From Longitalea luteola (GTDB taxonomy: Bacteria > Bacteroidota > Bacteroidia > Chitinophagales > Chitinophagaceae): DNA of 64,000 nt. The notes beneath the pieces were generated by a model. That model was not told the DNA's origin. It did not search any database and was given only the letters and a program-made list of their open reading frames with translations. The position numbers and the translations under genes were made by a program. Shown here piece by piece: positions 8,535 to 63,449 of the stretch. The stretch is from assembly GCF_017356035.1 (NCBI RefSeq), contig NZ_JAFIQX010000009.1, positions 1-64,000 on the forward strand, read 5' to 3'. How positions within the stretch are numbered: the stretch's first letter is position 1; every line of letters starts with the position of its first letter.

Positions 8535-8566
8535 AATGTGCTAATTTGCCAATGTGCTAATGGGCT
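8535..8566 (+). repeat. octamer array AAT[GT][TG]GC[TC] x4
   Basis: Four consecutive 8-bp units, AATGTGCT, AATTTGCC, AATGTGCT and AATGGGCT, start 5 bases after the permease stop codon. A looser GGCAATGG/GGCAATC stretch follows at 8588-8616. Confidence 0.85.
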
Positions 8567-8660
8567 AGCGCACGGAAGCAAAAGGAAATGGCAATGGCAT
8601 GGCAATCGGCAAAAATTTGAGGCTTTGCAAATCTGTTATCAGTTTCAATTGTCGCGAGCC

Positions 8661-8684
8661 ATTCACCACTCACCATTCACCATG
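8661..8684 (+). repeat. heptamer array CCA[TC]TCA running into a start codon
   Basis: Units CCATTCA, CCACTCA and CCATTCA are followed by CCATG, whose ATG is the start codon of the next gene. The reverse complement is the TGAATGG word seen again at 33086 and 52420. Confidence 0.75.
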
Positions 8685-9218
8685 CTTTATTTTATCGCCA
8701 TAGTAACACCGGAAGAGATCAACCAGCAGGTACTGGAATGGAAACACTATATGCTGCAACAGTTCGGGTGCAGGGTGGCGCTGAAATCACCGGCGCATAT
8801 AACGCTTATTCCGCCCTTTAATATGCCCACCACCCTGCACCACGAATTGGAGGAAGGAATACTGGAGTTCACGCAAGAACAGTCCTCTTTCCCCATTTAC
8901 TTAAAGGACTTTGCGGCTTTTAAACCGCGGGTAATCTATGTACATGTTCAACCCAATACCCATTTAAGCGATTTACAGGCGCGCCTGGAAGCTTTTCTTC
9001 TTAACACCGGCTTTCCCATTAAAAAAGAAGACCGCCCCTATCACCCACACGTTACGATCGCCAACCGTGATCTGCAAAAAGAAGATTTCCCCCTGGCCTG
9101 GCAATACTTTCAACAGCGGTCGTATGAAGTAGCGTTCACAGCCAATGCCGTTTGCCTGCTCCGGCATAACGGACAGGCCTGGGAAGTTGCCAATGCCTTT
9201 CCGCTGAATAAACGTTAA
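8682..9218 (+). CDS. 2'-5' RNA ligase family protein (2H phosphoesterase)
   Basis: A 178-residue cytosolic protein of the 2H phosphoesterase superfamily. The two catalytic H-x-T motifs are HITLIPPF and HPHVTIANR, about 85 residues apart. Members hydrolyse or form 2'-5' or cyclic phosphodiester bonds in RNA or nucleotides; the natural substrate here is unknown. I take the ATG at 8682 because homologous sequence (MLYFIAIVTPEE) begins there. The frame is open upstream to 8538, but only through repeat words. Confidence 0.88.
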   Translation: MLYFIAIVTPEEINQQVLEWKHYMLQQFGCRVALKSPAHITLIPPFNMPTTLHHELEEGILEFTQEQSSFPIYLKDFAAFKPRVIYVHVQPNTHLSDLQARLEAFLLNTGFPIKKEDRPYHPHVTIANRDLQKEDFPLAWQYFQQRSYEVAFTANAVCLLRHNGQAWEVANAFPLNKR

Positions 9219-9324
9219 AAAAAGAGACCGCTTAAAAAAAGGAATGCCCTCATGCAACAAATTACGAAATGTATCGTATTTTTATACGAAGGACGTCGTA
9301 AATAGAAACTATAAACTTAACACC

Positions 9325-10221
9325 ATGAAATTGAATCCACCACTTATCCGCTGGGGCGCCCTGGCCCTGCTCGCTGTGGCTACTGTTGTAACCCTGGAAG
9401 CTTTTAGCGGCAACCAGCAACCATATTTGACCATGGCCGACAACACCAACGATACCATCCCTAAAAGAAATAAAGTTACCCGCGAAACCGATGACCGTGA
9501 CCTTGATAAAGAACTACGTCAATTGGACAAAGCCCAGGAACAGCTGGAAAAGATGAAAGAAAAAGACTGGAATGAGGTTTCCCGCATGGCAGAAGAATCG
9601 ATCAGCAGAATAAACTTCGATAAGATCCAGGAACAAATAGACATGGCCACGAAGAGCATTGATTATGAAAAGATCAATCGCCAGGTACAGGAATCGCTGG
9701 CAAAGATCGATTTCGCCGAAATACAACGCAGCATTGAAAGATCACTGGATGAAGTAAAGAAAATTGACAAAGAAGAGCTCCGGCATGAACTCGAGAAAGC
9801 CCAAAAGCACGTTCAGGAAGCCCTGAAAAAAGAAGAGTGGAAGGAAGAATTGAAAAAAGCCCAGGCTTTTAACAGGGATGAAGTGAAGAAAGAACTCGAA
9901 AATGCCAGGAAAGAAATAGCCAAAGTCAAGGGCGAATTGAAAAAGCAGCAATTCGATTTCAGTAAGGAAATGGATAAGGCCAAAATGGAAATTGACAAAG
10001 CTAAAACCGACATGAAAGGCTACCAGGAAATGATCTACGACATGGAAGCTGCCGGCTTATTAAGCACTAAAGAAGATTACACGATCGAATACAAAAACGG
10101 CGATCTGTTCATCAATGATAAAAAACAACCGCAGGAGATTACTGACAAATACAAAAAGTATTTCAGGCAGAAGACTATAGCCATTAAAAAACAAGAAGGT
10201 CAAATGAAAATTGATCATTAG
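9325..10221 (+). CDS. exported coiled-coil protein
   Basis: A 298-residue protein starting at the ATG at 9325 (MKLNPPLIRWG). One hydrophobic N-terminal helix (WGALALLAVATVVTLEAFSG) is a signal peptide or anchor. A highly charged region of about 200 residues has the internal repeats INFDKIQEQI, IDYEKINRQV, IDFAEIQRSI and long K/E heptads, clearly coiled coil. The last 60 residues (YTIEYKNGDLFINDKKQP..ITDKYKKYF) form a small conserved-looking domain. It probably lies in the periplasm. No enzymatic motif is seen. The function is unknown. Confidence 0.8.
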   Translation: MKLNPPLIRWGALALLAVATVVTLEAFSGNQQPYLTMADNTNDTIPKRNKVTRETDDRDLDKELRQLDKAQEQLEKMKEKDWNEVSRMAEESISRINFDKIQEQIDMATKSIDYEKINRQVQESLAKIDFAEIQRSIERSLDEVKKIDKEELRHELEKAQKHVQEALKKEEWKEELKKAQAFNRDEVKKELENARKEIAKVKGELKKQQFDFSKEMDKAKMEIDKAKTDMKGYQEMIYDMEAAGLLSTKEDYTIEYKNGDLFINDKKQPQEITDKYKKYFRQKTIAIKKQEGQMKIDH

Positions 10222-10309
10222 ATCTTTCGGATACGCATTAGACTAGTGATTTTCTCATAAGGCGGGGCTGTTCTCAGTCCGGCCTTTTTTACGCTGAATG
10301 CCAAAAACC

Positions 10310-10374
10310 GCTTAAGGCCTAACGCTTAAGGCCGAACGCTAAAACCGCTGAACGCCTAACGCTAAATGCGTAAC
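10310..10374 (+). repeat. heptamer array GC[TC][TG]AA[GC], about 9 units
   Basis: Units GCTTAAG, GCCTAAC, GCTTAAG, GCCGAAC, GCTAAAA, then after a 2-base slip GCTGAAC, GCCTAAC, GCTAAAT and GCGTAAC. It lies in the 424-base gap between two convergent genes. A related word in inverted orientation (GCGTTTAGCG type) lies far away at 46403-46440. Confidence 0.85.
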
Positions 10375-10429
10375 GCTTGCTCCGCTTGAATTGAATGTGC
10401 AGCTTTAATAGCCGTGTTGGAGCTTGGCT

Positions 10430-10506
10430 TTTAGCCTTCCGCCTTTAACCTTCAGCCTTCCGCCTTCAGCCTTCTGCCTTTAGCCTTCAGCTTTCAGCCT
10501 TTAGCC
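10430..10506 (+). repeat. heptamer array TT[CT][AC]GCC, 11 units
   Basis: Eleven consecutive 7-bp units such as TTTAGCC, TTCCGCC, TTCAGCC and TTCTGCC. The reverse complement GGCTGAA is the word of the array at 46274-46350, so two distant sites share a family in opposite orientations. Confidence 0.9.
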
Positions 10507-10524
10507 TTCCTGGATAACCTGAAA

Positions 10525-10584
10525 CCCTTGTAACCTGTAACCTGAGCCCCGGCACCCGGTAACCGGTACCCGTAACCGGTAACC
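10525..10584 (-). repeat. heptamer words of the GGTTACC family
   Basis: Read on the minus strand it contains GGTTACC, GGTTACG, GGTACC, GGTTACC and GGGTGCC, then AGGTTAC twice. It is a less regular member of the family forming the 19-unit array at 12415. Confidence 0.7.
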
Positions 10585-10620
10585 CTAAAAAAAAGACCCC
10601 TTCAAAAGAAGCGGTCTCTT
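10585..10620 (-). terminator. intrinsic terminator
   Basis: On the minus strand a stem of GACCGCTTC and GAAGGGGTC (one mismatch, loop TTTT) is followed by a run of T. It lies about 25 bases downstream of the carboxypeptidase-regulatory-like gene that it should end. Confidence 0.8.
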
Positions 10621-10645
10621 TATTATAGTTATTTCAACCTATGGA

Positions 10646-11059: not shown

Positions 11060-11234
11060 AAAAAATTAGTGTTTAAAAGGTTGGCAAAACCAAACATCAG
11101 CTGCCATTAGTTTTCAAACGGGACCAATTACAAAGACACAACGCACGTACATAATGTTGCATTCCTACCCTGAAGGTACTTAAATTATAAAGATTTTACC
11201 CAGTTAAGTCTGCTTTTGCTCCCGAAAAATTTAC

Positions 11235-12233: not shown

Positions 12234-12414
12234 TTGAAAAATATTTGTTCTTCATCCCGACGGGGCCGGGAAAACAGCCAGGCTTATTTATTGCCGCCTC
12301 TTTCTTCTATCGAACCCACAAAGCACTGATTATTTCCTGAAAAACAAGTGGTTTGTTTTCAAAGCCGTGAAAATAGTAAAAAAAATTTTACCAGCGTTTG
12401 TTAGTTGGAAAACC
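12234..12414. other. intergenic region upstream of the nucleotidyltransferase
   Basis: The gap between the two divergent genes. Its distal part (12415-12685) is repeat array. A box TATTTTTC, one base off TAnnTTTG, lies just upstream of the minus-strand start at 12233 and may be that gene's promoter. Nothing else is recognised. Confidence 0.4.
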
Positions 12415-12547
12415 GGTTACCGGGTACCAGTTACCAGTTACCAGGTACCGGGTACCGGTTACCGGTTACCGGTTACCGGGTACCGGGTACCGGTTACCAG
12501 TTACCGGGTACCAGTTACCGGTTACCGGGTACCGGGTGCCAGTTACC
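12415..12547 (+). repeat. 19-unit heptamer array [AG]G[GT]TACC
   Basis: Nineteen consecutive 7-bp units without a single slip. Positions 1 (A/G) and 3 (T/G) vary and the rest are constant, apart from one TGCC unit (12534-12540). The order of the four variants is irregular: GGT, GGG, AGT, AGT, AGG, GGG, GGT x3, GGG x2, GGT, AGT, GGG, AGT, GGT, GGG, GGG, AGT. Many units contain the KpnI-type palindrome GGTACC. It lies between the divergent nucleotidyltransferase gene and glyA. Confidence 0.97.
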
Positions 12548-12643
12548 TTGAAAGTGAGCGTTACAGGTACAAGTTTCACGTTCCGGGTTTACGTATACGG
12601 CTCTACACAACCTGCTGCCTCGCAAGTGAGGCCTGCTTTGGAG

Positions 12644-12685
12644 AAACTTGCAACTTGGAACTTGTAACTTGGAACTTGTAACTTA
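12644..12685 (+). repeat. heptamer array [ACGT]AACTTG, 6 units, in the glyA promoter
   Basis: Units AAACTTG, CAACTTG, GAACTTG, TAACTTG, GAACTTG and TAACTTA run directly into the -7 box of glyA. The word is unrelated to that of the array 100 bases upstream. Confidence 0.9.
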
Positions 12686-12691
12686 TTTTTG
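12661..12691 (+). promoter_or_regulatory. glyA promoter, partly built from array units
   Basis: A perfect -7 box TATTTTTG (12684-12691) ends 4 bases before the start codon. A CTTG (12661-12664), one base off the -33 consensus TTTG, lies exactly 19 bases upstream and belongs to an array unit. Transcription should start at or next to the ATG, so the mRNA is probably leaderless or nearly so. Confidence 0.7.
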
Positions 12692-12695
12692 CGCC

Positions 12696-13976: not shown

Positions 13977-14025
13977 GAGCATCAATTCTGATTGCTCAAT
14001 ATTCGTAGCTGAACGTTATTTGCAA

Positions 14026-14124: not shown

Positions 14125-14201
14125 TTACAACCAAAAACCTGAACATCATTCTAAACTCAATTTCATTAACGTTCACCATCACTACTCACAAACCATAACA
14201 C

Positions 14202-14627: not shown

Positions 14628-14644
14628 TACGCATACTCGTTACT

Positions 14645-14730
14645 CAGTTCCTTAGTTTTTAAGTTATTCAGTTATTGAGTTCCTCAGTTATTAACTTAGT
14701 GAACTGAATAACTTATGAACTGAATAACTT
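14645..14730. repeat. octamer array [ACGT]AGTT[ACT][CT]T with inverted partner
   Basis: Six 8-bp units, CAGTTCCT, TAGTTTTT, AAGTTATT, CAGTTATT, GAGTTCCT and CAGTTATT (14645-14692), are followed from 14701 by the inverted words GAACTGAA, TAACTTAT, GAACTGAA, TAACTTG. The two halves are reverse complements and would form a stem between two convergent genes. Confidence 0.88.
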
Positions 14731-14734
14731 GTAT

Positions 14735-16637: not shown

Positions 16638-16640
16638 TCT

Positions 16641-24746: not shown

Positions 24747-24823
24747 GGTTACAGGTTGCAAGTTACAGGTTACAGGGCTCAAGACCAGGTTTTCCCTGTA
24801 GCCTGCAACATGTAACCTGTAAG
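24747..24823. repeat. heptamer hairpin [AG]GTT[AG]CA with inverted partner
   Basis: The left arm has units GGTTACA, GGTTGCA, AGTTACA, GGTTACA and GGGCTCA (24747-24781). The right arm, about 24791-24823, has TGTAGCC, TGCAACA, TGTAACC and TGTAAGG, the reverse complement of the same word. The loop is about 10-15 bases. It lies between the DUF6427 gene and purQ, both on the minus strand. Confidence 0.92.
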
Positions 24824-29655: not shown

Positions 29656-29718
29656 GGTTTGTTGTTTGTGGTTTGTTGTTTGTGGTTTGTTGTTTGTGGT
29701 TTGTTGTTTGTGGTTATC
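29656..29718 (+). repeat. heptamer array [GT]GTTTGT, 8 units
   Basis: Strictly alternating GGTTTGT and TGTTTGT units, 8 in all, with a decayed ninth (GGTTATC). It starts 4 bases after the kup stop codon. Inverted copies (ACCATAA, ACCACAA, ACTACAA, ACCATAA) lie at about 29891-29927, before the first hydrolase gene. Confidence 0.95.
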
Positions 29719-29932
29719 CTAATTTTATGCGTGTCCGACTATTGCTAACCAGCTGCACCTTCAGCGTGCGAAATATTTATTAGATTGGCTTAACCGGCTG
29801 GGAAAATAGAGTGCCGGATAAATGAAGGTGGTTTTGAACGAATGAACCACCCTAAGCATTCGGTGGGGTGAAATATTTATCAGAGATTTGCGGTAGAAGA
29901 ACCATAAACCACAAACTACAAACCATAAACTC
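29719..29932. repeat. core and right arm of inter-hydrolase element, copy 1
   Basis: This contains a core sharing blocks with the next intergenic region (TTAACCGGCT, AATAGAGTGCCGGATAA, GGTGGTTTTGAA, AATGAACCAC) and the inverted heptamer arm at 29891-29927. Copy 2 lies at 30757-30897. Array arm, core and inverted arm together look like one small repeated element. Confidence 0.75.
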
Positions 29933-29937: not shown

Positions 29938-30726
29938 TTGCCCACGATTGCCTACTATATCATCGGAGGCTTGCTCCTATTAAGTATTCTTGCCTACATA
30001 CTACAGGATTGGTTTATTTTCAAACCGGAAAAACTGCCAGCCGATTTTCAGTTCCGGTACGACATCCCTTTCAATGAATTATTCTTTGATATTTCGCCGG
30101 GCGTGCGCATTAACGGACTCCACTTTTACCGCCCCGATCCCAAAGGACTGATCCTTTATTTTCATGGCAACACCCGCAGCATAAAAGGCTGGGCTAAGTA
30201 TGCGCGTGATTTTTACCGCTATGGTTACGATGTAGTGCTGGTAGATTACCGGGGCTTTGGCAAAAGTACCGGCAAACGCAGCGAAAAAGACATGCTGAAC
30301 GACATGCAGTTCGTTTATAATGTTTTGATCGGAAAATACCCCGAACACCACATCATCGTATATGGACGCAGCATCGGCAGCGGCTTTGCAGCGTACATTG
30401 CATCGGAAAACAAACCACGCTATCTCATCCTCGATTCGCCTTATTATAATTTTCGCATCGTGGTAAAACGCTTTCTGCCCATCCTGCCGGTGCGGTATGT
30501 ATTGCGTTATCACCTGCGCACCGACAAATGGATCCGCCATGTAAACTGTCATACCTACATCATTCATGGCACCCGGGACCGGCTTATCCCTATCAGGCAC
30601 AGCGAAAGGCTGCAAAGGATCAATCCCCGCAAGATCACGCTGATCCGCATTGTAGGCGGAAGACATAATAACCTGCCCTCCTTTCCGGAGTACCATAATT
30701 TTGTGCGTGACATCTTAAAATACTAG
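29938..30726 (+). CDS. membrane-anchored alpha/beta hydrolase, copy 1
   Basis: A 262-residue protein with one N-terminal transmembrane helix and an alpha/beta-hydrolase domain facing out or in. Motifs: the oxyanion segment LYFHGNTRS, the nucleophile elbow YGRSIGSG (Ser), Asp in HGTRDRLIP, and His in VGGRHNN. It resembles the FrsA/BEM46-like 'DUF1749/hydrolase' group; the substrate is unknown. No ATG is available, so TTG at 29938 is the best start, but a -7-like TATAATTG overlaps it, which makes the start doubtful. Confidence 0.85.
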   Translation: MPTIAYYIIGGLLLLSILAYILQDWFIFKPEKLPADFQFRYDIPFNELFFDISPGVRINGLHFYRPDPKGLILYFHGNTRSIKGWAKYARDFYRYGYDVVLVDYRGFGKSTGKRSEKDMLNDMQFVYNVLIGKYPEHHIIVYGRSIGSGFAAYIASENKPRYLILDSPYYNFRIVVKRFLPILPVRYVLRYHLRTDKWIRHVNCHTYIIHGTRDRLIPIRHSERLQRINPRKITLIRIVGGRHNNLPSFPEYHNFVRDILKY

Positions 30727-30897
30727 TTTATGGTTTGTGGGTTGTGGTTTGTAGTTAGCCTGATTTTATAGCCGGCTGATCAAAGGTTTACCAGCTAATT
30801 TATGGGGTTAACCGGCTAGAAAAATTAGAGAGCCGCATAATTAGCGGTGGTTTCGAATAAATGAACCACAAACCATAAACCACAAACCACAAACCCT
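30726..30897. repeat. inter-hydrolase element, copy 2, with heptamer arms
   Basis: The left arm GTTTATG, GTTTGTG, GGTTGTG, GTTTGTA starts inside the stop codon of the first hydrolase gene. The right arm ACCACAA, ACCATAA, ACCACAA, ACCACAA ends 18 bases before the ATG of the second. The core matches copy 1 (29719-29890) in several blocks. Confidence 0.85.
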
Positions 30898-31722: not shown

Positions 31723-31815
31723 CTGAAGTCGGAGGTCTGAAGTCAGACGTCTGAAGTCGGAAGAGCCTGTATTTCGGATTTCCGACTTCCGACATCGGAC
31801 CCCGGACCTCGCAGT
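31723..31815. repeat. heptamer array C[TGA]GA[AGC]GT with inverted partner
   Basis: Units CTGAAGT, CGGAGGT, CTGAAGT, CAGACGT, CTGAAGT and CGGAAGA (31723-31764) begin at the base after the hydrolase stop codon. Inverted units TCCGACT, TCCGACA, TCGGACC and CCGGACC follow (about 31780-31812). They would form a stem between convergent genes and may act as a terminator. The same word occurs inside metG. Confidence 0.92.
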
Positions 31816-32773: not shown

Positions 32774-33085
32774 AATAGGTTTTGTCTATAGTTCTATAAA
32801 ATTAATCAATTTGATTTATCAACAAAATAATTGAAGTTTTGTGATACCGGTTTAAATAGCGATCCGGCATTCCGGTATAAGAACTGTTTCAAAAGGGGGT
32901 TCAGGGAAAGGCCGCAGAAGAGTAGCTTATAGTTTTTTGGAAATTCAAAATACCCGGTAATATTATTCTGCAAATGTGGTGACCCTGCATTTGCGACCCG
33001 CTCATGTGGTAGATGGCATCAGCCGCCTGTAAGCGTTAAGGGCTGTATAATATCCTATTCTGATGTACATCACTACCGCTTGGGT
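32774..33085. other. intergenic region upstream of oxyR
   Basis: About 310 bases of AT-rich sequence with the oxyR promoter presumably at its left end. No perfect TAnnTTTG box and no gene were found. An OxyR operator might lie here, but no convincing ATAG-type repeat was recognised. Confidence 0.4.
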
Positions 33086-33169
33086 TGAATGGTGAATGGT
33101 GAATGGTGAATGGTCAATGGTCAATGGTCAATGGTGAATGGTCAATGGTGAATGGTCAATGGTCAATGG
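33086..33169 (+). repeat. 12-unit heptamer array T[GC]AATGG
   Basis: Twelve consecutive 7-bp units in which only position 2 varies, in the order G G G G C C C G C G C C, plus one decayed unit TCAGTGC. It ends 6 bases before the stop codon of the minus-strand TIGR04222 gene. The same word is found at 52420 and, inverted, at 8661. Confidence 0.97.
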
Positions 33170-33181
33170 TCAGTGCCGGCT

Positions 33182-34612: not shown

Positions 34613-34756
34613 ATTTCTGTCTTTGGTTACACAAAGTTATAACGGAGTTATTCAACCGGGCAAGCAAGCGTGTGTTACCAAATTATTAATCCGTGTGGAA
34701 CCTGCACTTTGCATGTGAAACGCTGTTATGGAACGTTTGTGGAACGCTGAACCAAC
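34613..34756. other. intergenic region upstream of the TIGR04222 gene
   Basis: Short unique stretch before the heptamer array. No perfect -7 box was found and no small gene is supported. Together with the two arrays to 34977 it makes a 365-base gap. Confidence 0.35.
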
Positions 34757-34833
34757 GGGCAATAGACAATAGGCAAAGGGCAACTGGCAATAGACAATGG
34801 ACAATAGACAATGGGCAAAAGGCAATAGGCAAT
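34757..34833 (+). repeat. heptamer array [AGT]G[GA]CAA[TAC], 11 units
   Basis: Eleven consecutive 7-bp units such as GGGCAAT, AGACAAT, AGGCAAA and TGGCAAT. The same word recurs at 40380-40407 next to another stop codon. Confidence 0.95.
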
Positions 34834-34897
34834 AATTACCACCCATCTCTATTCAACATTATCAACTCTATAAACCGTATTAAATTTATTAACCCTA

Positions 34898-34977
34898 TCA
34901 ACCGGTCAACGGGTTAACTGGTCAACGGATTAACTGGTTAACTGGTCAACTGGCCAACTGGTCAACTGGTCAACTTA
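34898..34977 (+). repeat. octamer array [TC][CT]AAC[TGC]GG, 9-10 units
   Basis: Ten consecutive 8-bp units (TCAACCGG, TCAACGGG, TTAACTGG ... TCAACTGG, TCAACTTA) end at the base before the stop codon of the LD-carboxypeptidase gene (34978-34980). The word is shared with 52535 and 62503. Confidence 0.95.
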
Positions 34978-35904: not shown

Positions 35905-35965
35905 TATCATTTTATTTGTAATGCGAAATACCTGATGATTACATTCAATGTTCAAATTTAAGCAA

Positions 35966-39514: not shown

Positions 39515-40381
39515 ATGAAAATCGGATTTATCGGGTTAGGCAACCTGGGCACACCCATTGCCGAAAACCTGCAGGAAAAAGGACATCAGCTGTTTGTTTA
39601 CAATCGCACTGCTTCCAAAACAAAAGCATTGACCGACAAAGGCGCCACAGCCCTGGCAACGGTGAAAGAGCTGGCGGTGGAGTGTGCGGTTATCATCACC
39701 ATGGTCGCAGATGACAAAGCCCTTAAAAGCATCTGCGAAGGTGACGATGGCCTGATAGAAAATATGCAGCCGGGAGGCGTTCACATCGCTATGAGCACCA
39801 TACTGCCGCTTACCGCTGCGGAATTGTCAGAACAACACCAACAACATGGTTCACACTACCTGGCAGCACCGGTCTTTGGCCGTCCAGAAGCAGCCCGCGC
39901 CCGCAAGCTGAACTTTGTGGTATCGGGCGAAGCCACCGTTCGCCAGCAATACGAACAACTATTTAAAGATGCGGGCGGCGCAGGTGTATGGGATTTTGGC
40001 GATGCCATCACGGCTGCCAATACTGTGAAGCTTTGCGGTAATTTTATGATCGCTGCTGCCCTGGAAGCCATTGGTGAAAGCGTTTCACTCGCTGCCAAAA
40101 GCAATATCGATACGCAGAAGATGTGGTCATTCTTTACCCAAACGCTCTTCAACTCACCTATATATGTGAACTACGGTAACTTTATCGTAAACCAGCAATT
40201 TAAACCGGCGGCTTTCAACATGCCATTGGGGTTAAAAGATATTAACCTGGTACTTTCACAGGCTGCGGCAGTTGACAATAACATGCCGTTTGCCCTGCTG
40301 CTGAAGCACCATATGCAACAGCTCATAGAAAAAGATCCCGAGCTCGACTGGAGCGCCGTGTCGCTGGCGGCGAATCAATAG
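39515..40381 (+). CDS. NAD(P)-dependent beta-hydroxyacid dehydrogenase
   Basis: A 288-residue cytosolic enzyme of the 6-phosphogluconate/3-hydroxyisobutyrate dehydrogenase family. The Rossmann motif GFIGLGNLGTPIAENL is at residues 4-19, followed by VYNRTASK. The substrate motif is degenerate (ISTIL), and the catalytic Lys lies in GAANTVKLCGNF-like sequence (AANTVKLCGNF). The adjacent convergent glycerate kinase suggests tartronate semialdehyde or a related acid as substrate, which is inference. The stop codon lies in a repeat unit. Confidence 0.88.
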   Translation: MKIGFIGLGNLGTPIAENLQEKGHQLFVYNRTASKTKALTDKGATALATVKELAVECAVIITMVADDKALKSICEGDDGLIENMQPGGVHIAMSTILPLTAAELSEQHQQHGSHYLAAPVFGRPEAARARKLNFVVSGEATVRQQYEQLFKDAGGAGVWDFGDAITAANTVKLCGNFMIAAALEAIGESVSLAAKSNIDTQKMWSFFTQTLFNSPIYVNYGNFIVNQQFKPAAFNMPLGLKDINLVLSQAAAVDNNMPFALLLKHHMQQLIEKDPELDWSAVSLAANQ

Positions 40382-40407
40382 GCAATAGACAATAGGCAAT
40401 AGACAAA
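40380..40407 (+). repeat. heptamer array AG[GA]CAA[TA], 4 units
   Basis: Units AGGCAAT, AGACAAT, AGGCAAT and AGACAAA. The first unit completes the TAG stop codon of the dehydrogenase gene. The word is the same as at 34757. Confidence 0.88.
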
Positions 40408-40409
40408 AT

Positions 40410-40457
40410 AGGTGTGCCACATTTCCCTGCAGCGTCGAAAGTAAATGTGGCACACCT
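40410..40457. terminator. bidirectional intrinsic terminator
   Basis: Perfect 15-bp arms (AGGTGTGCCACATTT at 40410-40424 and its complement at 40443-40457) lie between two convergent genes. The minus-strand exit is TATTTTGTCT; the plus side has little T-run and overlaps the approach to the glycerate kinase stop. Confidence 0.8.
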
Positions 40458-40461
40458 CGAT

Positions 40462-44366: not shown

Positions 44367-44381
44367 TTTAAATTTATTCTT

Positions 44382-44437
44382 AGTTCTAAGTTTTAAGTTC
44401 AAAGTTTTAAGTTCAAAGTTTTAAGTTCTAAGTTGAC
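44382..44437 (+). repeat. 8-unit heptamer array AGTT[CT][TA]A
   Basis: Units AGTTCTA, AGTTTTA, AGTTCAA, AGTTTTA, AGTTCAA, AGTTTTA, AGTTCTA and AGTTGAC, without a slip. It lies just after the terminator, so it is probably not needed for termination of the upstream gene. Confidence 0.95.
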
Positions 44438-44506
44438 AGCGTTAACGATAATAAGTGAGGATAGTGGATAATTTGATATTTGAGTAATCAAGGTTGTCGA
44501 TTCACA

Positions 44507-44583
44507 ACTGACGATTGACGATTGACGATTGTCGACTGCCGATTGTCGATTGTCGATTGTCGATTGTTTATTGCCTTTTGATT
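44507..44583 (+). repeat. heptamer array A[CT]TG[AT]CG running to a start codon
   Basis: Eight regular units (ACTGACG, ATTGACG x2, ATTGTCG, ACTGCCG, ATTGTCG x3) are followed by decaying units ATTGTTT, ATTGCCT and TTTGATT that end 3 bases before the ATG of the metalloprotease gene. Its promoter and leader must therefore lie within the array. Confidence 0.93.
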
Positions 44584-46246: not shown

Positions 46247-46350
46247 GTTACCGGTTTCCGGTTGCCGGTTACCAGGCTGAAGGCTGAAGGCGCAAGGCTG
46301 AAAGCTGAAGGCTGAGGGCTGAAGGCGCAAGGCTGAAAGCTGAAGGCTGA
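46247..46350 (+). repeat. GGTTACC words followed by 11-unit heptamer array AGGCTGA
   Basis: GGTTTCC, GGTTGCC and GGTTACC are followed at 46274 by eleven units of [AG][GA]GC[TG][GC]A: AGGCTGA, AGGCTGA, AGGCGCA, AGGCTGA, AAGCTGA, AGGCTGA, GGGCTGA, AGGCGCA, AGGCTGA, AAGCTGA, AGGCTGA. A five-unit block (cGCA, cTGA, AAG, AGG) is repeated within it, pointing to duplication of several units at once. It lies in the 377-base gap between ftsZ and the epimerase gene. Confidence 0.95.
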
Positions 46351-46402
46351 AGGCAATCACTGCTATTTAAAGCAGCACACACACTTTATGAAAGGCAAGT
46401 GT

Positions 46403-46440
46403 TCAGCTTTTAGCGTTTAGCGTTAAGCGGTTTTGGCGTT
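46403..46440 (+). repeat. degenerate GTTTAGC words
   Basis: Words TTTTAGC, GTTTAGC and GTTAAGC, then a looser GGTTTTGGCGTTCGGCC. It is the inverse of the array at 10310. Confidence 0.6.
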
Positions 46441-48681: not shown

Positions 48682-48722
48682 TTAATTGTTGGCCTTGAGC
48701 CTTATGCCTTCAGCCTTGTGCC
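48682..48722 (+). repeat. heptamer array [GAT]GCCTT[GACT], 5 units
   Basis: Units GGCCTTG, AGCCTTA, TGCCTTC, AGCCTTG and TGCCTTT end at the ftsA stop codon (48724-48726 region). Lies in the ftsZ-ftsA gap inside the dcw operon. Confidence 0.88.
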
Positions 48723-48723
48723 T

Positions 48724-50100
48724 TTATAATGCGTGATCCTCTTCTTCTTTGAACAATTCGATAATCCCATCCTTGAACTTGCCCCAGAAATCTTTAATGC
48801 CCTTACGGTTCCTTACTTTTCCGGCATGCAGTTCATCATCATCGATAAACTCTTCTTCCACCAGCGCTGTCTTGCGCAGATTGTCGGGGATCTCTATTTT
48901 CCGGAACTGGTTCTCGAACTGCTTGCGATGATTTTCATAATCGCTGTAGCCTTTCAAAATAAGACCGATACAGGTTGAATAAGTTGGGCGGGCCAGCTCT
49001 TCAATGTGACCGGCAGCCAGGTGCTCGGTGGGAAAACCAATGCGCGCATTCAGTCCGGTAACATATTCTGTTAACTGGATCAGGTGTTTCAATTGAGAAC
49101 CACCACCGGTCAATACGATTCCGCCATTGAGCATGCGGCTGTCCAGACCCACCTGCTTCAGGTGATAGGTAACAAAATCCATGATCTCGCTCATGCGGGC
49201 CTGGATGATGTTGGCCAGGTTCTTCACACTGATCTCTTTTGCCGGCATCCCACGCAAACCCGGAATGGTAATGAAGGCATTGCTGCGCGCTTCATTGGCC
49301 AGGGCGCTGCCAAACTGCACTTTCATTTGTTCAGCCTGGGTCTTCAATACACCCAAACCGGTTTTGATATCATTGGTGATATTCTCGCCACCAAAAGGAA
49401 TAACCGCTGTATGTTTCAGAATACCTTCATAGAAAACGGCCAGGTCGGTTGTACCACCACCTATATCTACAATCGCTACGCCTGCTTCCAGATCTTCAGT
49501 GCCCATTACAGCTGCTGCAGATGCCAGCGGTTGCAACACCAGGTCCTTTGTCTTTAAACCACTTTTCTCTACTGCGCGGTTGATATTGCGAATGGCATTC
49601 TTGTCTCCGGTGATGATGTGGAAATTAGCACCAATTTTCACGCCACCATAGCCAATTGGGTTAGGAATATTTTGAAAATTATCAACTGTAAACTCCTGGG
49701 GTATTACATCGATGATCTGATCACCTGCCGGAATGTAGGTTTTATACTGATCAGAGATCAGCTGATCGATCTCGCGCTGTGATATTTCATCATCGGTTTG
49801 CTGACGAACGATATCACCACGGGTTTGCAGGCTTTTTATATGATGTCCTGCAATACCAACATATACTTCATTTATTTCCAGACCGGGGTTTGAAGCGTAA
49901 CAGTTTTCAAGCGCCATGCTAATGGCCTTGATGGTTTCGTCGATATTAAGCACCTGTCCGTGCTTAACACCGTTGGAGTTCGCCCGGCCAAAACCGATGA
50001 TCTCCAGTTTGCCGAACTCGTTCTTTCGGCCGGCAATCGCGGCAATTTTTGTCGTACCGATATCCAGTCCGACAATAATGGGTTGTTGTTCGTGTTGCAT
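48724..50100 (-). CDS. ftsA: cell division protein FtsA
   Basis: A 458-residue actin-like protein that anchors FtsZ filaments to the membrane. The phosphate-1 loop VGLDIGTTKIAAIAG is at residues 9-23, followed by the 1C insert domain (EINEVYVGIAGHHIKSLQTRG), phosphate-2 VDIGGGTTDLAVF and adenosine motif IVLTGGGSQL. The C-terminal amphipathic helix FWGKFKDGIIELFKEEED is the membrane target. It follows ftsQ by 138 bases that contain an octamer array. Confidence 0.96.
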   Translation of the reverse strand: MQHEQQPIIVGLDIGTTKIAAIAGRKNEFGKLEIIGFGRANSNGVKHGQVLNIDETIKAISMALENCYASNPGLEINEVYVGIAGHHIKSLQTRGDIVRQQTDDEISQREIDQLISDQYKTYIPAGDQIIDVIPQEFTVDNFQNIPNPIGYGGVKIGANFHIITGDKNAIRNINRAVEKSGLKTKDLVLQPLASAAAVMGTEDLEAGVAIVDIGGGTTDLAVFYEGILKHTAVIPFGGENITNDIKTGLGVLKTQAEQMKVQFGSALANEARSNAFITIPGLRGMPAKEISVKNLANIIQARMSEIMDFVTYHLKQVGLDSRMLNGGIVLTGGGSQLKHLIQLTEYVTGLNARIGFPTEHLAAGHIEELARPTYSTCIGLILKGYSDYENHRKQFENQFRKIEIPDNLRKTALVEEEFIDDDELHAGKVRNRKGIKDFWGKFKDGIIELFKEEEDHAL

Positions 50101-50140
50101 ACTTATCCTGTTTTTAGTTGTTGTATAGGGATGTCGTTGA

Positions 50141-50172
50141 CCAGTTTACCAGTTAACGAGTTAACCAGTTAA
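50141..50172 (+). repeat. octamer array C[CG]AGTT[TA]A, 4 units
   Basis: Units CCAGTTTA, CCAGTTAA, CGAGTTAA and CCAGTTAA in the ftsQ-ftsA gap. It sits within a presumed single transcript. Confidence 0.88.
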
Positions 50173-50238
50173 CTCTTTCAATCTCCTAACCCGTCACGCT
50201 CTTTATTATCTTTCTAATACTTATTAATTATAACATAC

Positions 50239-51012
50239 CTACGTTCGCTTCACCCCTATCACCTGTCGTGCGTATCGTACGTTCAGCTTCTGGTACACGT
50301 CCATGCCTGTTTTGCTCAACACCTGCTGATAAAACAACAGCAACCGCCTAAACTTTTTCTCGTAATCGGTACCATCACCAAATTGAATGATATGGTTGCC
50401 TACCACGGGTATGAATTCAAATGTGCGATCAGCCTGCACATCGATTTGCGAAACCTGTGCCATCCAGAAATCATCATGCAATAAATAATTGCTAATGTTA
50501 ACGATGTCACGGATCAATACACTATCGGCCCCTTTTAGTTTATCCTTTTCCGAAGGGAAACCGGTGAATACCGGCAACCGGGCCGAAAACTTGTCTGACA
50601 ACGGCAGTCGTTCGCCGCTGCTGTCTATGTAAAAGCTATTACCTGTAGCCGTAAATAACCTGGCTACGGGTACGCGCTCTTCTATGCGCACCTGCAATAC
50701 CCGGCTATTATCAAAGAACAATTCTGCATCTTTAACCCACACATTATTCTTCAACTGGTTCTCCATCTTACGCAGGTCAAACTCTTTGATCGGTTTTCCT
50801 TTGACACCGCCCTGGCTCACCAGTATGGCGGTTACATCTTTTTTGTCAAGGAACCATTGGTCTGACTTCCCTTTCAGGCTTATCGCATAGCCCTTGCAGG
50901 TCTTGTTGTTCTGCGCATTCATTGCAGCTACCAGCAATACCATAGTGCCGGCTGCTACACACAGCCAGAAACCCACTAATAATAATTTCCTGATAGAGCG
51001 TTTCTTTTTCAT
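50239..51012 (-). CDS. ftsQ: cell division protein FtsQ
   Basis: A 257-residue bitopic membrane protein of the divisome. A short basic cytoplasmic start (MKKKRSIRKLLL) is followed by one transmembrane helix (VGFWLCVAAGTMVLLVAAM), then a POTRA-like domain (AISLKGKSDQWFLDKKDVTAILV) and the FtsQ/DivIB core. Sequence similarity to proteobacterial FtsQ is low, so position between murC and ftsA (14 bases after murC) carries part of the call. Confidence 0.88.
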   Translation of the reverse strand: MKKKRSIRKLLLVGFWLCVAAGTMVLLVAAMNAQNNKTCKGYAISLKGKSDQWFLDKKDVTAILVSQGGVKGKPIKEFDLRKMENQLKNNVWVKDAELFFDNSRVLQVRIEERVPVARLFTATGNSFYIDSSGERLPLSDKFSARLPVFTGFPSEKDKLKGADSVLIRDIVNISNYLLHDDFWMAQVSQIDVQADRTFEFIPVVGNHIIQFGDGTDYEKKFRRLLLFYQQVLSKTGMDVYQKLNVRYARQVIGVKRT

Positions 51013-52419: not shown

Positions 52420-52454
52420 TGAATGGTGAATGGTCAATGGATAATGGTGAATGG
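52420..52454 (+). repeat. heptamer array T[GC]AATGG, 5 units
   Basis: Units TGAATGG, TGAATGG, TCAATGG, ATAATGG and TGAATGG lie just upstream of the murC start codon (52415), inside the dcw cluster. The word is the same as at 33086. Confidence 0.9.
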
Positions 52455-52534
52455 GTTCCAATTCCCAGGCTCGCTTCAATTCTCTTACCTCATGCCTCGT
52501 ACTGCTCTTACCTATATCACCGATATCAACCTTA

Positions 52535-52597
52535 TCAACTTGTTAACTTGTCATCTCGTCAACTGGTCAACTCGTCAACTGGTCAACTCGTCAATTA
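52535..52597 (+). repeat. octamer array T[CT]AACT[TCG]G, 7 units, into murG stop
   Basis: Units TCAACTTG, TTAACTTG, TCATCTCG, TCAACTGG, TCAACTCG, TCAACTGG and TCAACTCG (52535-52590). The next unit (TCAATTAT) contains the murG stop codon (52595-52597). Confidence 0.93.
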
Positions 52598-55211: not shown

Positions 55212-55252
55212 TCTTGTTTCATTAACACGCTTGGAGTCCGACTGCCAACTGC

Positions 55253-58092: not shown

Positions 58093-58124
58093 GTTGGTTT
58101 ATTTTAGGTGTACGAGCTCTTGCC

Positions 58125-59588: not shown

Positions 59589-59599
59589 AATATTTAAAT

Positions 59600-61729: not shown

Positions 61730-61738
61730 GTGAATCAG

Positions 61739-61832
61739 CTAGTGGTTAGTAGCTAGTGGCTGGTAAGCCTAAATTCGCAACTGCCTTTTTTTTCAGACTT
61801 TCCCTACTCGCCATTTACTACTTGCTACTTGC
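61739..61832. repeat. heptamer words [CT]TAGT[GA]G with inverted partner
   Basis: CTAGTGG, TTAGTAG, CTAGTGG and CTGGTAA (61739-61766) face inverted TTTACTA, CTTGCTA, CTTGCCC (about 61812-61832). They form a possible stem upstream of the ftsI start codon. Confidence 0.7.
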
Positions 61833-61849
61833 CCTTTCTTCTCATTTTT

Positions 61850-61886
61850 GTCAACTTTATCACTTTGTCAACTTTATCACTTCGTC
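61850..61886 (+). repeat. 17-bp (8+9) repeat overlapping the ftsL 3' end
   Basis: TGTCAACTT and TATCACTT words alternate (period 17) and run through the ftsL stop codon (61877-61879). The last codons of ftsL (KLT-K-stop) are encoded by repeat words. Confidence 0.8.
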
Positions 61887-62212
61887 AACTTAACCGTATC
61901 AACCAGCACGGCCGGGGGAACGGTCAGTTCTTTCAGGCCTAGCGGCTGTACTGCTTTGGCCATCTCACTTTGTTTGCTGCGGAACATCACTTCACTTTTC
62001 AGTGTTTTGTATTCGTATTGAAGTTCTTTCAGCTCACGGTTCAGTTTGTTGATGTTGCGCACGGTGTTATCGGCAAAGTGACCATTGTAGATGTATACAA
62101 CTGCCAGGGCCGACAGGAACAGAAAGAATGGAATGTTCTTCACGATCCACCTGTACCCGAACAACGTTTTGCGTTGTCTTCTCCTGCGTGCTATTTCTTT
62201 TTCTTCACTCAT
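61877..62212 (-). CDS. ftsL: FtsL-like divisome protein
   Basis: A 111-residue bitopic protein. A basic cytoplasmic start (KEIARRRRQRKTLFG) is followed by one transmembrane helix (IPFFLFLSALAVVYIYNGHF) and a leucine-zipper-like coiled coil (INKLNRELKELQYEYKTLKSEV). Size, topology and place between rsmH and ftsI identify it as the FtsL equivalent, which bridges FtsQ and FtsWI. Sequence identity in this family is always low. Confidence 0.88.
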   Translation of the reverse strand: MSEEKEIARRRRQRKTLFGYRWIVKNIPFFLFLSALAVVYIYNGHFADNTVRNINKLNRELKELQYEYKTLKSEVMFRSKQSEMAKAVQPLGLKELTVPPAVLVDTVKLTK

Positions 62213-62522
62213 TTTTAATCGAATAGCGGTCAGACAGGTGTTATCCGTCTAACCGCTACGTAAGCTTAATTCACGAGGCGTAATTCAATAGAACATTGCA
62301 ATTTTTAATACCCTTTATATTGAGAATAAGAACTCTGTTAATGTGATAATGTGATAATTCGATAATTTGATAATGAGATACATCTCCTTATTTCATCCTA
62401 CATTTTCATCAAGTTCTCCAGGCTTCTTCTTTCGTTCGTTACTGCTTACATCAAACTCAATAACTAAAAAACTCAATAACTGAATAACTTATGGTACTTA
62501 TAAACATTGTTAACCGGTCAAC
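62213..62522. repeat. 310-base intra-operon gap with three octamer arrays
   Basis: No gene is supported. Octamers AATGTGAT x2, AATTCGAT, AATTTGAT, AATGAGAT at 62340-62379. CTCAATAA, CTAAAAAA, CTCAATAA, CTGAATAA at 62456-62487. TTAACCGG, TCAACCTA, TCCACTCG from about 62511, running over the rsmH stop codon (62523-62525). Each array has its own word and all have period 8. Confidence 0.9.
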
Positions 62523-63449
62523 CTATCCACTCGTCTCCACTTTCTCAGCGACTCTTAACCTGGCACTGCGAGCGCGGGAATTCCGCTTCATTTCTGCTTC
62601 AGTAGGTACGATCGGTTTTTTGGTTACAGCTTTGAGTGGAGGCTGGCTGGTTTGCAACCCGAACGGGTCAACATCTACTGCTTCTTCTTCAAAATTTCCT
62701 TTGCGAAAGAAATTCTTTACGATCCGGTCTTCCAGAGAATGAAAAGTAATAATGGCTACACGGCCGGCGGGTTTTAACAGGGGGGGAACCTGCTGAAGCA
62801 TTTCTTTCAAAGCGCCTAATTCATCATTCACCTCAATACGCAAAGCCTGAAATACCTGGGCAAAGTACTTGTGAGGGTTTCCTTTCACCACGGAGTGAAG
62901 CGCCTGTTTAAAGTTGGAGATGGTTTTTAGCGATACATTTTTCCGCAGTTGAACTATGGTCCTGGCCAGTGTTTTCGAATTGGTTACTTCACCATACTGT
63001 TCAAACAATTTGTGCAATTGCTGTTCAGTGTAAGAGTTCACCACTTCAAAAGCGGTCAGTTGCTGCCGCTGGTCCATTCGCATATCCAGGTCACCTTCGA
63101 AACGGGTGCTGAATCCGCGGTCGGCGGTATCAAACTGGTGGCTGCTTACGCCCAGATCGGCGAGAATGCCATCTACCTGGGTAATTTTATGCAACCGGCA
63201 AAACCGCTGCAGGTGCCTGAAGTTGTGCGGAACAAAAATGATACGATCATCATCGGGCACATTCTTCCGGGCATCTGCATCCTGGTCAAAAACAACCATC
63301 CGCCCTTCGGTGTTTAGGTGTTTGAGTATTTCCAGGGAATGTCCGCCACCACCAAAGGTACAATCAACATATACCCCATCGGGGCGAATGTTCAATCCGT
63401 CGATCACCTCCTGCAATAAAACCGGCACATGGTAAACAGGCTCACTCAT
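62523..63449 (-). CDS. rsmH: 16S rRNA (cytosine1402-N4)-methyltransferase
   Basis: A 308-residue SAM-dependent methyltransferase of the mraW/rsmH family, modifying C1402 in the ribosomal P site. The start MSEPVYHVPVLLQEVIDGL, then VDCTFGGGGHSLEIL (SAM loop), GILADLGVSSHQFD and ITFHSLEDRIVKNFF are diagnostic. I take the ATG at 63449, 13 bases after mraZ; an upstream start at 63488 would overlap mraZ. It is second in the dcw cluster, as usual. Confidence 0.96.
   Translation of the reverse strand: MSEPVYHVPVLLQEVIDGLNIRPDGVYVDCTFGGGGHSLEILKHLNTEGRMVVFDQDADARKNVPDDDRIIFVPHNFRHLQRFCRLHKITQVDGILADLGVSSHQFDTADRGFSTRFEGDLDMRMDQRQQLTAFEVVNSYTEQQLHKLFEQYGEVTNSKTLARTIVQLRKNVSLKTISNFKQALHSVVKGNPHKYFAQVFQALRIEVNDELGALKEMLQQVPPLLKPAGRVAIITFHSLEDRIVKNFFRKGNFEEEAVDVDPFGLQTSQPPLKAVTKKPIVPTEAEMKRNSRARSARLRVAEKVETSG

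Follow-up and report, generated by a model that had tools for sequence, protein, structure and literature searches.

The window, i.e. the whole stretch of 64,000 nucleotides from Longitalea luteola that was analysed, encodes among others a methionyl-tRNA synthetase, FtsA and a MurG-like glycosyltransferase, and many of its gaps between genes carry arrays of short degenerate words repeated with a period of 7 or 8 bp. The arrays, many of them arms of inverted pairs (L-type and R-type), are the following.

8539..8567, + strand: TAATGTGC-class array, 8 bp, L-type, 8 nt past the stop at 8530 (TRF start 8535)
8659..8685, - strand: GTGAATG-class array, 7 bp, R-type, in the same gap as 8539, ending ahead of a 2'-5' RNA ligase domain
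~10304-10377: AACGCT-class L arm, sharing its gap with the array at 10442
10442..10508, - strand: AAGGCTG-class array, 7 bp, R-type arm
12412..12544, + strand: ACCGGTT array, 19 copies, word nearly self-palindromic, polarity uncertain
12643..12686, - strand: AAGTTAC-class R arm, 7 bp, partner at 12564-12584
14652..14729: inverted pair TTAGTTAT, 8 bp, in a convergent gap (L 14652-14681, R 14709-14729)
24747..24822: inverted pair GTTACAG (L 24747-24776, R 24802-24822)
29657..29930: TTTGTGG-class inverted pair in a tandem gap (L 29657-29715, beginning 4 nt past a stop; R 29900-29930, ending 7 nt ahead of the next ORF)
30724..30895: second TTTGTGG-class inverted pair (L 30724-30758 from a stop codon, R 30861-30895)
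31723..31808: inverted pair GAAGTCG (L 31723-31743 from a stop, R 31769-31808)
33084..33175: 12 copies of the 7-bp word GTCAATG/GTGAATG (GTSAATG), placed at the right gap edge with 6 nt to a stop
34753..34834, + strand: CAATAGR array, 7 bp, L-type
34898..34975, - strand: TCAACTGG array, 8 bp (L form GTTGACCA), larger part R-type, ending 2 nt short of the stop of 34978-35955
39045-39073: coding array in the methionyl-tRNA synthetase gene, between domains
40373..40410, + strand: CAATAGR array, including the CAA-TAG end of ORF 39515-40381
44377..44434, + strand: L-type array of AAGTTCT/AAGTTTT, 7 bp, preceded by a terminator-like hairpin also present in relatives
44494..44576, - strand: ATTGTCG array, 7 bp (CAATCG class), R-type
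46247..46275, + strand: GTTACCG array, recognisable in L. arenae too
46274..46431: AAGGCTG L arm (46274-46354) and AACGCT-class R arm (46402-46431), absent from L. arenae
48692..48724, - strand: GCCTTGA array (AAGGCTN class, R-type by sequence), touching the ftsA stop; found by TRF only, below the detector threshold
50136..50173, + strand: GTTAACCA array, 8 bp, between ftsA (48724-50100) and ORF 50239-51012
52420..52596: GTGAATG L arm (52420-52447) and TCAACTCG R arm, 8 bp (52547-52596), the latter touching the stop of the glycosyltransferase-28 (MurG-like) ORF
61847..61891: array of alternating 8- and 9-bp units
62334..62491: two 8-bp arms, L with TAATGTGA (62334-62380) and R with AATAACTA/AACTCAAT (62459-62491)

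A detector set to a minimum of 17 matches in 21 at lag p found 29 arrays in the window with a period of 7 (21 arrays) or 8 (8 arrays), in line with the "more than 25" of an earlier note on this DNA, and one each of periods 3, 6 and 9. Period 7 covers 948 bp and period 8 covers 309 bp of the 11,191 bp of intergenic DNA, the other periods from 4 to 12 cover 0-30 bp each, and ten dinucleotide-preserving shuffles of the same DNA gave 0 bp at periods 7 and 8, so that the sharp 7/8 peak predicted by that note was borne out. A TRF array lies within about 10 bp of each array start that it had listed; at 31723 the TRF period is 14, i.e. two degenerate 7-mers, and the period of 17 at about 61850 confirms the proposed alternation of 8 and 9. 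Minor signals were seen at periods 13, 17, 23, 26 and 29 (35-70 bp). The described intergenic location stands insofar as the arrays are nearly confined to gaps; 6 of the 29 lie by more than half within a longest-ORF call, and the coding DNA (52,809 bp) holds 90 and 4 bp at periods 7 and 8 (shuffled means 3.0 and 6.1, maxima 30 and 31). The arrays at 8539 and 8659 fall in the first 50 codons of the longest ORF 8538-9218, the true start of which is probably later, since its 2'-5' RNA ligase domain begins only at residues 51-58. The arrays at 12412 and 12643 lie within a putative ORF of 104 aa and the array at 44500 overlaps the start of an ORF with no Pfam match. The system was found in all three stretches of the present genome that were examined, with 73 and 90 arrays per 400 kb and a share of intergenic DNA of 5-11%, compared to 2% in Niastella koreensis. 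The same 7/8 pattern in 400 kb of the N. koreensis genome, which is a single contig, rules out an assembly artefact.

The arrays draw on a restricted vocabulary. Counting the two arms of a gap separately, 156 period-7 arrays are built from 60 words (146 at random) and 75 period-8 arrays from 27 (73 at random). The words group into about 16 classes or, when merged, 11 families. That words recur far apart and in both orientations, as had been noted, is confirmed by a single CAATAG pattern with 51 overlapping matches in the genome (reversed control: 0). The word profiles resemble motif logos with a fixed core and one or two freer positions; units vary independently, their order within arms is indistinguishable from shuffled order, and arms and loci resemble independent samples of a word. 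The mean GC of the arrays is 0.41, and left arms contain 25.5% G versus 13.9% C.

The arrays are mostly laid out as convergent inverted pairs, in which the G-rich strand runs away from the adjacent ORF. L-type and R-type arms are both present in 50 of 70 array-bearing gap instances, and 20 have one arm only; 47 arm pairs point inward and 4 outward. In the window the arrays are not placed independently of one another; gaps with two oriented arrays show the order L-type to R-type, a layout absent from the earlier note, e.g., 29657/29900, 30724/30861, 34786/34922, 46274/46402, 52420/52547 and 62334/62459. The C-poor strand mostly runs 5' to 3' towards the gap centre. After dropping 21 ambiguous arrays, polarity from the gene edge into the gap, which is independent of gene direction, was found for 163 of the 199 oriented arrays and 36 are exceptions; L:R is 97:18 in the left half of gaps and 18:66 in the right half, a trend alike in all four gene arrangements. 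The array at 33084 breaks this rule, being L-type in one analysis and tied in another. In 11 non-Niastella genomes one word gave L:R 10:1 in left halves and R:L 8:1 in right halves (overlapping loci removed). Arrays frequently begin where genes end: the start lies at most 5 nt from a stop codon in 51 of 210 array-stop comparisons versus 9.3 ± 2.8, the enrichment at start codons is weaker (13 of 170 versus 5.4 ± 2.3), and arrays at or overlapping a stop codon are L-type at 65:1. Stop codons next to arrays are conserved: the C-termini coincide in 13 of 15 genes touched by an array and in 88 of 106 other genes.

With profiles trained on other stretches, both arms belong to a common word family in 39 of 51 two-armed gaps (permuted mean 13.1, maximum 21 in 2000), and 12 gaps mix families. 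The spacer between the arms is non-conserved and the arms do not correspond unit by unit (identity score 5.86, against 5.90 once the units are shuffled, p 0.66); with foreign arms of their class the match is as good (6.19 versus 6.37). Word sharing between neighbouring gaps (within 3 kb) is not detectable: a word is common to 10 of 58 pairs, and 91 of 500 shuffles (mean 7.3) reached at least that number. Same-word direct partners exceed the control (65 versus 17.3 of 192, continuations of the same array included), and array density is 0.53 per kb in divergent gaps versus 1.17-1.37 elsewhere.

The turnover that had been anticipated was observed between species, where words as well as lengths change. 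Among relatives differing by about 9% at the protein level, orthologous gaps mostly keep arrays and the word differs in 12 of 29 shared gaps; in L. arenae the gap of 10442 holds a GTTAC-family pair, that of 31723 a GTTACCG pair and the array of 12412 about 5 copies (by eye). In place of the 48692 array N. caeni has related units over about 200 bp, whereas N. vici has no counterpart, and close species have next to nothing in gaps of the ftsA/murG region that bear arrays here. The relatives compared yielded no clean junction between an empty and a filled gap, and neither a break or repair event nor the birth of an array was seen. As some arrays, such as the one at 117348, are conserved unit by unit (by eye), the process behind them is not fast.

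From these observations we infer, with a probability of roughly 0.35, that the arrays may have been synthesised 3'-ward from gene edges into the gaps. The C-poor strand would be made by repeated 3'-end synthesis from the coding edges of a gap, for which the repair of intergenic breaks or single-stranded gaps would be the likeliest occasion. One episode would place one word at both gap edges, slippage on a degenerate template would scramble the order of units, purifying selection would halt the replaced region at coding sequence, and a later episode might swap both arms for another word; the arrays themselves would need no function. Polarity exceptions, one-armed gaps, mixed word families, same-word direct partners and the arrays conserved unit by unit count against this model. 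No writing enzyme or template was found among the candidates checked, a retron-type reverse transcriptase and an IS200-like transposase. The type XIII retron reverse transcriptase was rejected as writer, occurring in 5 of 27 genomes (four Niastella and one weak partial match); it is conserved in the genus yet absent from other array-rich genera. The presence of the transposase does not track with the arrays. A telomerase-like variant, in which both 3' ends left by intergenic breakage would be extended with units of one word, drawn from a limited set of degenerate 7/8-nt templates, similarly to the healing of chromosome ends by telomerase, and then joined, is a long shot.

Synthesis from gene edges has to be weighed against ordinary polymerase slippage, which could expand any short word while selection clears arrays from genes and promoters, inverted pairs being retained as useful or tolerated hairpins or cruciforms. 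This is possible though on balance unlikely. In most genomes heptamers are reported to outnumber all other long simple repeats, and a polymerase contact of 7 nt was proposed (Mrazek et al. 2007, as cited in PMC4679880 and PMC4692102); the variable copy number at 12412 (19 against about 5), the sparser divergent gaps and the excess of direct partners fit as well. Slippage leaves the restricted shared vocabulary, the inward polarity and the starts at stop codons without a reason, as well as a word that is common to both arms yet not to neighbouring gaps, and selection for hairpins predicts the unit-by-unit match that the arms lack. Of the two processes invoked in the earlier note, simple word expansion fails on vocabulary, shared arms and polarity, and selection for folded intergenic RNA is weakened by the missing correspondence of the arms. 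That the words are binding sites, arranged as inverted homotypic clusters for a family of oligomerising DNA- or RNA-binding proteins, would explain logo-like profiles, independently varying units and the mostly single word family per gap, and a repeat-binding regulator was proposed for TAACTGA (PMC4679880). It is nevertheless rather doubtful, as the array density and the number of classes would demand many proteins, nothing would account for a start exactly at the stop codon, the word can switch between orthologous gaps, and the filled gaps of the ftsA/murG region are almost empty in close species.

A function of the inverted pairs as transcription terminators or 3'-end stabilisers, suggested by the frequent starts at stop codons and the highest densities in convergent and tandem gaps, is improbable: TTTTT lies near the right arm in just 6 of 68 elements, so that the stem is not generally followed by a T-run, separate terminator-like hairpins at 10221 and 44311 precede arrays (by eye), and arrays are present in divergent gaps and within the ftsA/murG cluster as well. 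Dispersed mobile elements of MITE, REPIN or RAYT type with arrays as ends are largely refuted despite the inverted ends in fixed orientation and an IS200-like transposase in 10 of 10 genomes of the genus searched. No conserved body was found: with arrays masked, only 26 of 155 array-bearing gaps match any other of 468 gaps, the matches consisting mostly of residual words or of other palindromes (by eye), and a shared neighbour (AATACAG) is weak and limited to the TAATGTG class. Moreover, the genomes G059 and G061, in which GTSAATG is abundant, have no such transposase, and G050, G052 and G053, which are devoid of that word, carry one. G-quadruplex-forming repeats, as proposed for GGGAATC, would share the geometry of the Xanthomonas and Nostoc arrays and the excess of G over C in left arms; for the arrays examined here they are refuted by sequence, as 0 of 309 match the consensus on either strand, GGG or CCC of any kind occurs in 62 of 309 and the mean GC is 0.41.

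As the same geometry occurs in words unable to form G-quadruplexes, the idea put forward for GGGAATC is not general. Inward polarity, the mostly single word family of a gap, arms that are no copies of each other and fixed sites at which the word switches place quantitative constraints on any theory of bacterial short tandem repeats. The question why heptamers are used becomes testable in a sequenced soil bacterium, N. koreensis, and the share of arrays in intergenic DNA bears on the prediction of promoters, sRNAs and terminators in the family. If the telomerase-like gap-edge writing were true, a single process would have left its scars as convergent heptamer arrays in Xanthomonas, Nostoc, Beggiatoaceae and Chitinophagaceae.

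Among known systems, REPINs are copies with conserved spacers, in which short intergenic units are inverted in fixed inward orientation; REP/REPIN elements with RAYTs resemble the present arrays in these inward units, whereas here neither a conserved spacer nor a tracking transposase was found. Cyanobacterial STRRs are tandem heptanucleotides, and the comparison drawn with them is supported by the tandem 7-mers common to both, although octamers coexist here and the host differs. For Calothrix, three heptanucleotides are mentioned (PMC4692102). The earlier view of STRRs as the closest parallel is not supported, since the GGGAATC arrays of Xanthomonas and Nostoc have the geometry described here (PMC4692102). 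In the parts of that report on these arrays, two Xanthomonas species possess 186 and 183 arrays of GGGAATC / GGGGA(C/T)T heptamers, 89-93% intergenic, with 70 and 75 convergent inverted pairs; they overlap stop codons, are scarce between divergent ORFs and lie mostly between the same genes in both species, with varying length and sequence, while Nostoc shows few inverted pairs (PMC4692102). The present arrays share the degenerate, mostly intergenic tandem 7-bp units. They differ in having 8-bp units too, word switching at orthologous gaps and about 16 classes with no G4 consensus instead of one G4-capable word family per lineage (PMC4692102). The earlier statement that no equivalent was described in Bacteroidota does not hold, as TAACTGA direct repeats were reported from Beggiatoaceae, cyanobacteria and five Bacteroidetes, some gaps carrying other heptamers alongside (PMC4679880). 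These are likewise intergenic heptamers adjoining genes in one predominant orientation, and relatives have short, repeat-free gaps; unlike the present arrays they consist mostly of one word, with two to six copies in the main genome, lie upstream of starts with one indirect repeat in the sections describing them, and were proposed to act in regulation (PMC4679880). TAACTGA is absent among the period-7 words here, and the arrays are not start-adjacent direct repeats. It lies forward before starts, and in F. litoralis a single reverse set follows immediately on a stop (PMC4679880); these sets would fit the inward rule if TCAGTTA, which resembles L-type GTTATTCA, is the L form. Long simple sequence repeats have units of 5-11 bp among which heptamers predominate (Mrazek et al. 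2007, as cited in PMC4679880); the present arrays fall within this range and exceed chance length, and differ in being degenerate, paired, polar and vocabulary-based. Reports from a few other bacteria thus describe this layout with single words, and here it is carried by many words that are swappable between species.

The window is the beginning of a 338-kb contig in a genome of 7.30 Mb, whose FtsA is 99% identical to that of Longitalea arenae and 94-97% identical to those of Niastella species. An earlier note, made from the sequence alone, had claimed a system of intergenic arrays with a strict period of 7 or 8 bp, and Tandem Repeats Finder (TRF) at a low threshold reports an array within ~10 bp of each position that it had named. 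With arrays called at 17 or more matches in 21 at a given period, the intergenic DNA of the window (11,191 bp) contained 948 bp at period 7 and 309 bp at period 8, compared with 0 in ten dinucleotide-preserving shuffles; 0 bp were found at periods 4-6 and 10-12 and 30 bp at period 9. The intergenic preference was likewise confirmed, as the coding part (52,809 bp; genes taken as longest ORFs, with uncertain start positions) held only 90 and 4 bp at periods 7 and 8 (on average 3.0 and 6.1 bp after shuffling). One array, at 39045, lies within a methionyl-tRNA synthetase gene. The strongest longer periods in the window were the multiples of 7 or 8, i.e., 14, 16, 21, 24, and 28, while periods 13, 17, 23, 26, and 29 covered 35-70 bp each. 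A perfect 29-bp tandem repeat of 2.1 copies is located at 93-152, close to two tRNA genes. The same two periods dominated the larger stretches, with at most 8 arrays per stretch at each of the remaining periods 3-12. Niastella koreensis GR20-10 is a single contig of 9,033,684 bp, showing that a one-contig genome has the same array pattern.

Arrays per stretch (C11 and C33 are contigs)
C11, 400 kb: 47 of period 7, 26 of period 8
C33, 400 kb: 65 of period 7, 25 of period 8
Window: 21 of period 7, 8 of period 8
N. koreensis GR20-10, 400 kb: 23 of period 7, 16 of period 8

The arrays draw on a restricted vocabulary. With rotations and strands merged, 156 period-7 arrays reduced to 60 distinct words (random 146) and 75 period-8 arrays to 27 (random 73); the biggest one-mismatch clusters contained 28 and 29 arrays (random maxima 11 and 8), the clustering being inflated by counting each arm of a gap separately. 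Each word class consists of a fixed core with one or two freer positions, and 27 of 309 arrays were without any fitting class. Regional clustering of words along the chromosome was looked for and rejected.

Examples of word classes, in left-edge orientation
GTTNCAR, GTTRCCR, AACGCWN, AAGGCTN, CAATRGR, GTSAATG, TTTRTKG
GAAGTAR, AAGTTCA, TAATKTGM, GATTTYGR, GTTRACCA, GTTATTNA
Array word: TAATGTGC

Other repeats accompany the arrays. Palindromes of the form CCTGCCTGCCGGCAGGCAGG lie within AACGCT-class arrays at several loci (contigs C11, C33, and C43) and resemble the small dispersed repeats that are found inside heptamer arrays. In C11, units of ~94 bp (145094-145400) and 60 bp (294448-294605), each repeated in tandem about three times, carry TAATGTG or GATTT arrays. 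The palindrome AGGTGTGCCACA...TGTGGCACACCT at 40407-40461 of the window looks similar by eye to 33-bp palindromes, near-identical to each other, in C33 and in gaps at ~82.9 and 136.3 kb of C43, which would form a separate dispersed family.

Many arrays are arms of inverted pairs. At score 18, 69 of the 192 arrays in the present genome (control 11.3) and 21 of 39 in N. koreensis (control 2.3) had an inverted partner of the same word no more than 300 bp away. Direct partners, in which continuations of one array are included, numbered 65 (control 17.3) and 4 (control 1.7), respectively. The list of inverted elements comprises 72 entries with a median spacer of 56 bp, several sharing an arm and self-palindromic ACCGGT words being retained. 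A single orientation was used in all 11 exact-word classes having at least two elements (37 elements, some sharing an arm), and none was mixed. The left word had more G than C in 43 of the 72 elements, equal numbers in 19 and fewer G in 10; it was keto-rich in 48 and purine-rich in 31. C11, C33, and N. koreensis served to train profiles, which were then tested on C43 and L. arenae; there, 47 of 51 gaps with both arm types had them pointing into the gap and 4 outward. Both arms carried the same word family in 39 of the 51 (permuted mean 13.1), 16 profiles having been merged to 11 families and the threshold set at 14 (null 99th percentile 14.1). Gap instances reaching 30 bp numbered 162, of which 92 were armless, 50 had both arms, 12 had only R-type and 8 only L-type arms.

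The orientation of the arrays follows the gene edges. L-type denotes the word in left-edge orientation and R-type its opposite; for the polarity count, orientation was learned from inverted elements only and 21 ambiguous arrays were dropped. Of the arrays overlapping a stop codon or within 5 nt of it, 65 were L-type in the gene sense and one was R-type, namely GTTAACAG, which is nearly self-palindromic. Over all gaps, L:R was 97:18 in the left half and 18:66 in the right half, the label single being provisional for arrays at 64-204 kb of C43. The trend is present in each of four gene arrangements, and the polarity is therefore not a transcription-strand effect. For the GTSAATG word, 30 loci of 16 genomes gave L:R of 13:1 in the left half and R:L of 10:3 in the right half; after removal of Niastella and of overlapping loci, the remaining 11 genomes gave 10:1 and 8:1, and 7:0 at stops. 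Flavihumibacter profundi has five close plus/minus GTSAATG pairs, all pointing inward. The clearest exception in the window is a 12-copy GTSAATG array at 33084-33175, which is L-type at the right gap edge. Supply of stop codons was rejected as the cause of polarity, since GTTACAG arrays follow stops in an orientation in which the word reads without stop codons.

The contact with genes is close. Of 210 array-to-stop comparisons 51 were within 5 nt (9.3 ± 2.8 for random placement in the same gaps), compared with 13 of 170 for predicted starts (5.4 ± 2.3). Over 63 listed cases, the first unit often included the stop codon, with 111 of 189 bases fitting the word, and the coding DNA ahead of the stop did not fit (399 of 1323 bases). 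C-termini coincided with those of L. arenae orthologues in 13 of 15 array-touched proteins and in 88 of 106 others. As the protein ends are unchanged, the arrays extend to the old stop codon and the genes were not shortened.

In the earlier note, turnover of arrays between close strains was to count in favour of the claim. This genome and L. arenae share 109 orthologous gaps (median protein identity 91%), 75 of which, being at least 30 bp long in both, were compared: 36 were without arrays, 17 carried the same word family, 12 different ones, 8 an array only here and 2 only in L. arenae. Change of word was thus seen, and the sites themselves were mostly kept. Arrays in both species occurred in 29 gaps, compared with ~15 if independent by simple arithmetic, gap length being a confounder. 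Among the 12 switches, the one at 202248 rests wholly on near-threshold scores and others have one weak arm. An earlier, cruder count over the 109 gaps gave 80 with neither, 12 with own arrays only, 8 with the same word, 6 with different words and 3 with L. arenae arrays only. An inverted pair close to the stop at 31722 is present in both species, with the word GAAGTCG here and GTTACCG in L. arenae, and at 10221 the same terminator-like hairpin is followed by different pairs. Around ftsA and murG, gaps of Niastella measure 14-21 bp in some cases and 100-320 bp, with arrays, in others. Unit-by-unit conservation was seen by eye in a few arrays (117348).

Polarity set solely by which side is coding suggests one-directional growth, and the use of a single word family in each gap suggests that one episode filled it. 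The C-poor strand would grow in its 3' direction, away from sequence protected by selection. Neither the vocabulary nor the shared word nor the polarity is explained by slippage alone. Selection for hairpins does not account for words common to distant loci or for the absent correspondence of units: arm identity scored 5.86, compared with 5.90 for unit-shuffled arms (n = 68 of the 72 elements, self-palindromic ACCGGT words being dropped) and 6.19 compared with 6.37 for same-class arms from other loci (n = 35). On these scores, fold-back synthesis, i.e., unit-by-unit copying between arms, and RNA covariation were rejected. Dispersal of arrays as copies was rejected, as the longest common stretch between same-class arrays at different loci hardly exceeded that of shuffled ones (10.94 vs. 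10.50), apart from the GTSAATG class, which was modestly higher (14.2 vs. 12.2). MITE bodies were rejected because array-masked gaps seldom resemble one another: 53 of 468 were in any match, 26 of these being among the 155 array-bearing gaps. In the search for a universal spacer motif, nothing beyond AATACAG was found near arrays. First noticed adjoining TAATGTG arrays, it had an array no more than 60 bp away in 10 of its 42 intergenic occurrences, compared with 0 of 37 for AATACTG (C11, C33, the window and the N. koreensis stretch).

Terminators and G-quadruplexes (G4) were tested as the identity of the arrays and rejected. Chi-like sites would fit in length and polarity and were set aside, as some 16 words would be required. 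A type XIII retron reverse transcriptase (RT) and an IS200-like TnpA, both conserved in the genus, were considered as writers and dropped on distribution. The retron-like RT is accompanied by its SWIM partner (locus L227:1325-4861); the RT occurs in 9 of 10 genus genomes, the tenth being incomplete, and in genome G015, and is unusually stable for a defence system. The IS200-like Y1 transposase (L230:2714-3169) lies between a DAHP synthase/chorismate mutase gene and aroB; its family has a strong match in 10 of 10 genus genomes, with neighbours of similar length in G005, G007, and G011, and it is possibly domesticated in this aromatic-amino-acid gene cluster. PADLOC additionally detects a Drt9-family RT in the window's own genome (L229:2926-4470).

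Across the phylum the arrays are patchy, they are dense in this genus and their spread differs by word. In the dcw region, 28 of 77 Chitinophagaceae loci (80 obtained, three dropped as shorter than 5 kb) had a period-7/8 array; array numbers over the loci were 50 at period 7, 12 at period 8 and 26 at the remaining periods of 4-12. Other genera were represented by 17 stretches of 14-20 kb (20 obtained, three short ones left out), of which three had one period-7 array each and 14 no period-7/8 array. About two and a half units of the GTSAATG word occurred in 16 of the 27 Chitinophagaceae genomes, several of them having no more than one or two matches. Over Bacteroidota, 23 of 395 genomes, from 19 of 171 genera, contained it, compared with 6 of 395 for its reversed control. 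Among Chitinophagaceae, the control gave 106 matches in Niastella vici, probably reflecting many arrays of another, related word, and one in genome G044. All 10 genus genomes contained the CAATAG pattern, and none of the 29 genomes searched from other genera did.

No description of a many-word, paired array system in Chitinophagaceae was found in searches of a collection of openly licensed papers. For known heptamer arrays, Rehm et al. (2015; PMC4692102) show G-quadruplex formation in vitro and report that no function was found, and MacGregor (2015; PMC4679880) describes TAACTGA arrays with five Bacteroidetes among the hosts. Polarity in arrays without G4, which is new to us, generalises beyond these known heptamer arrays.
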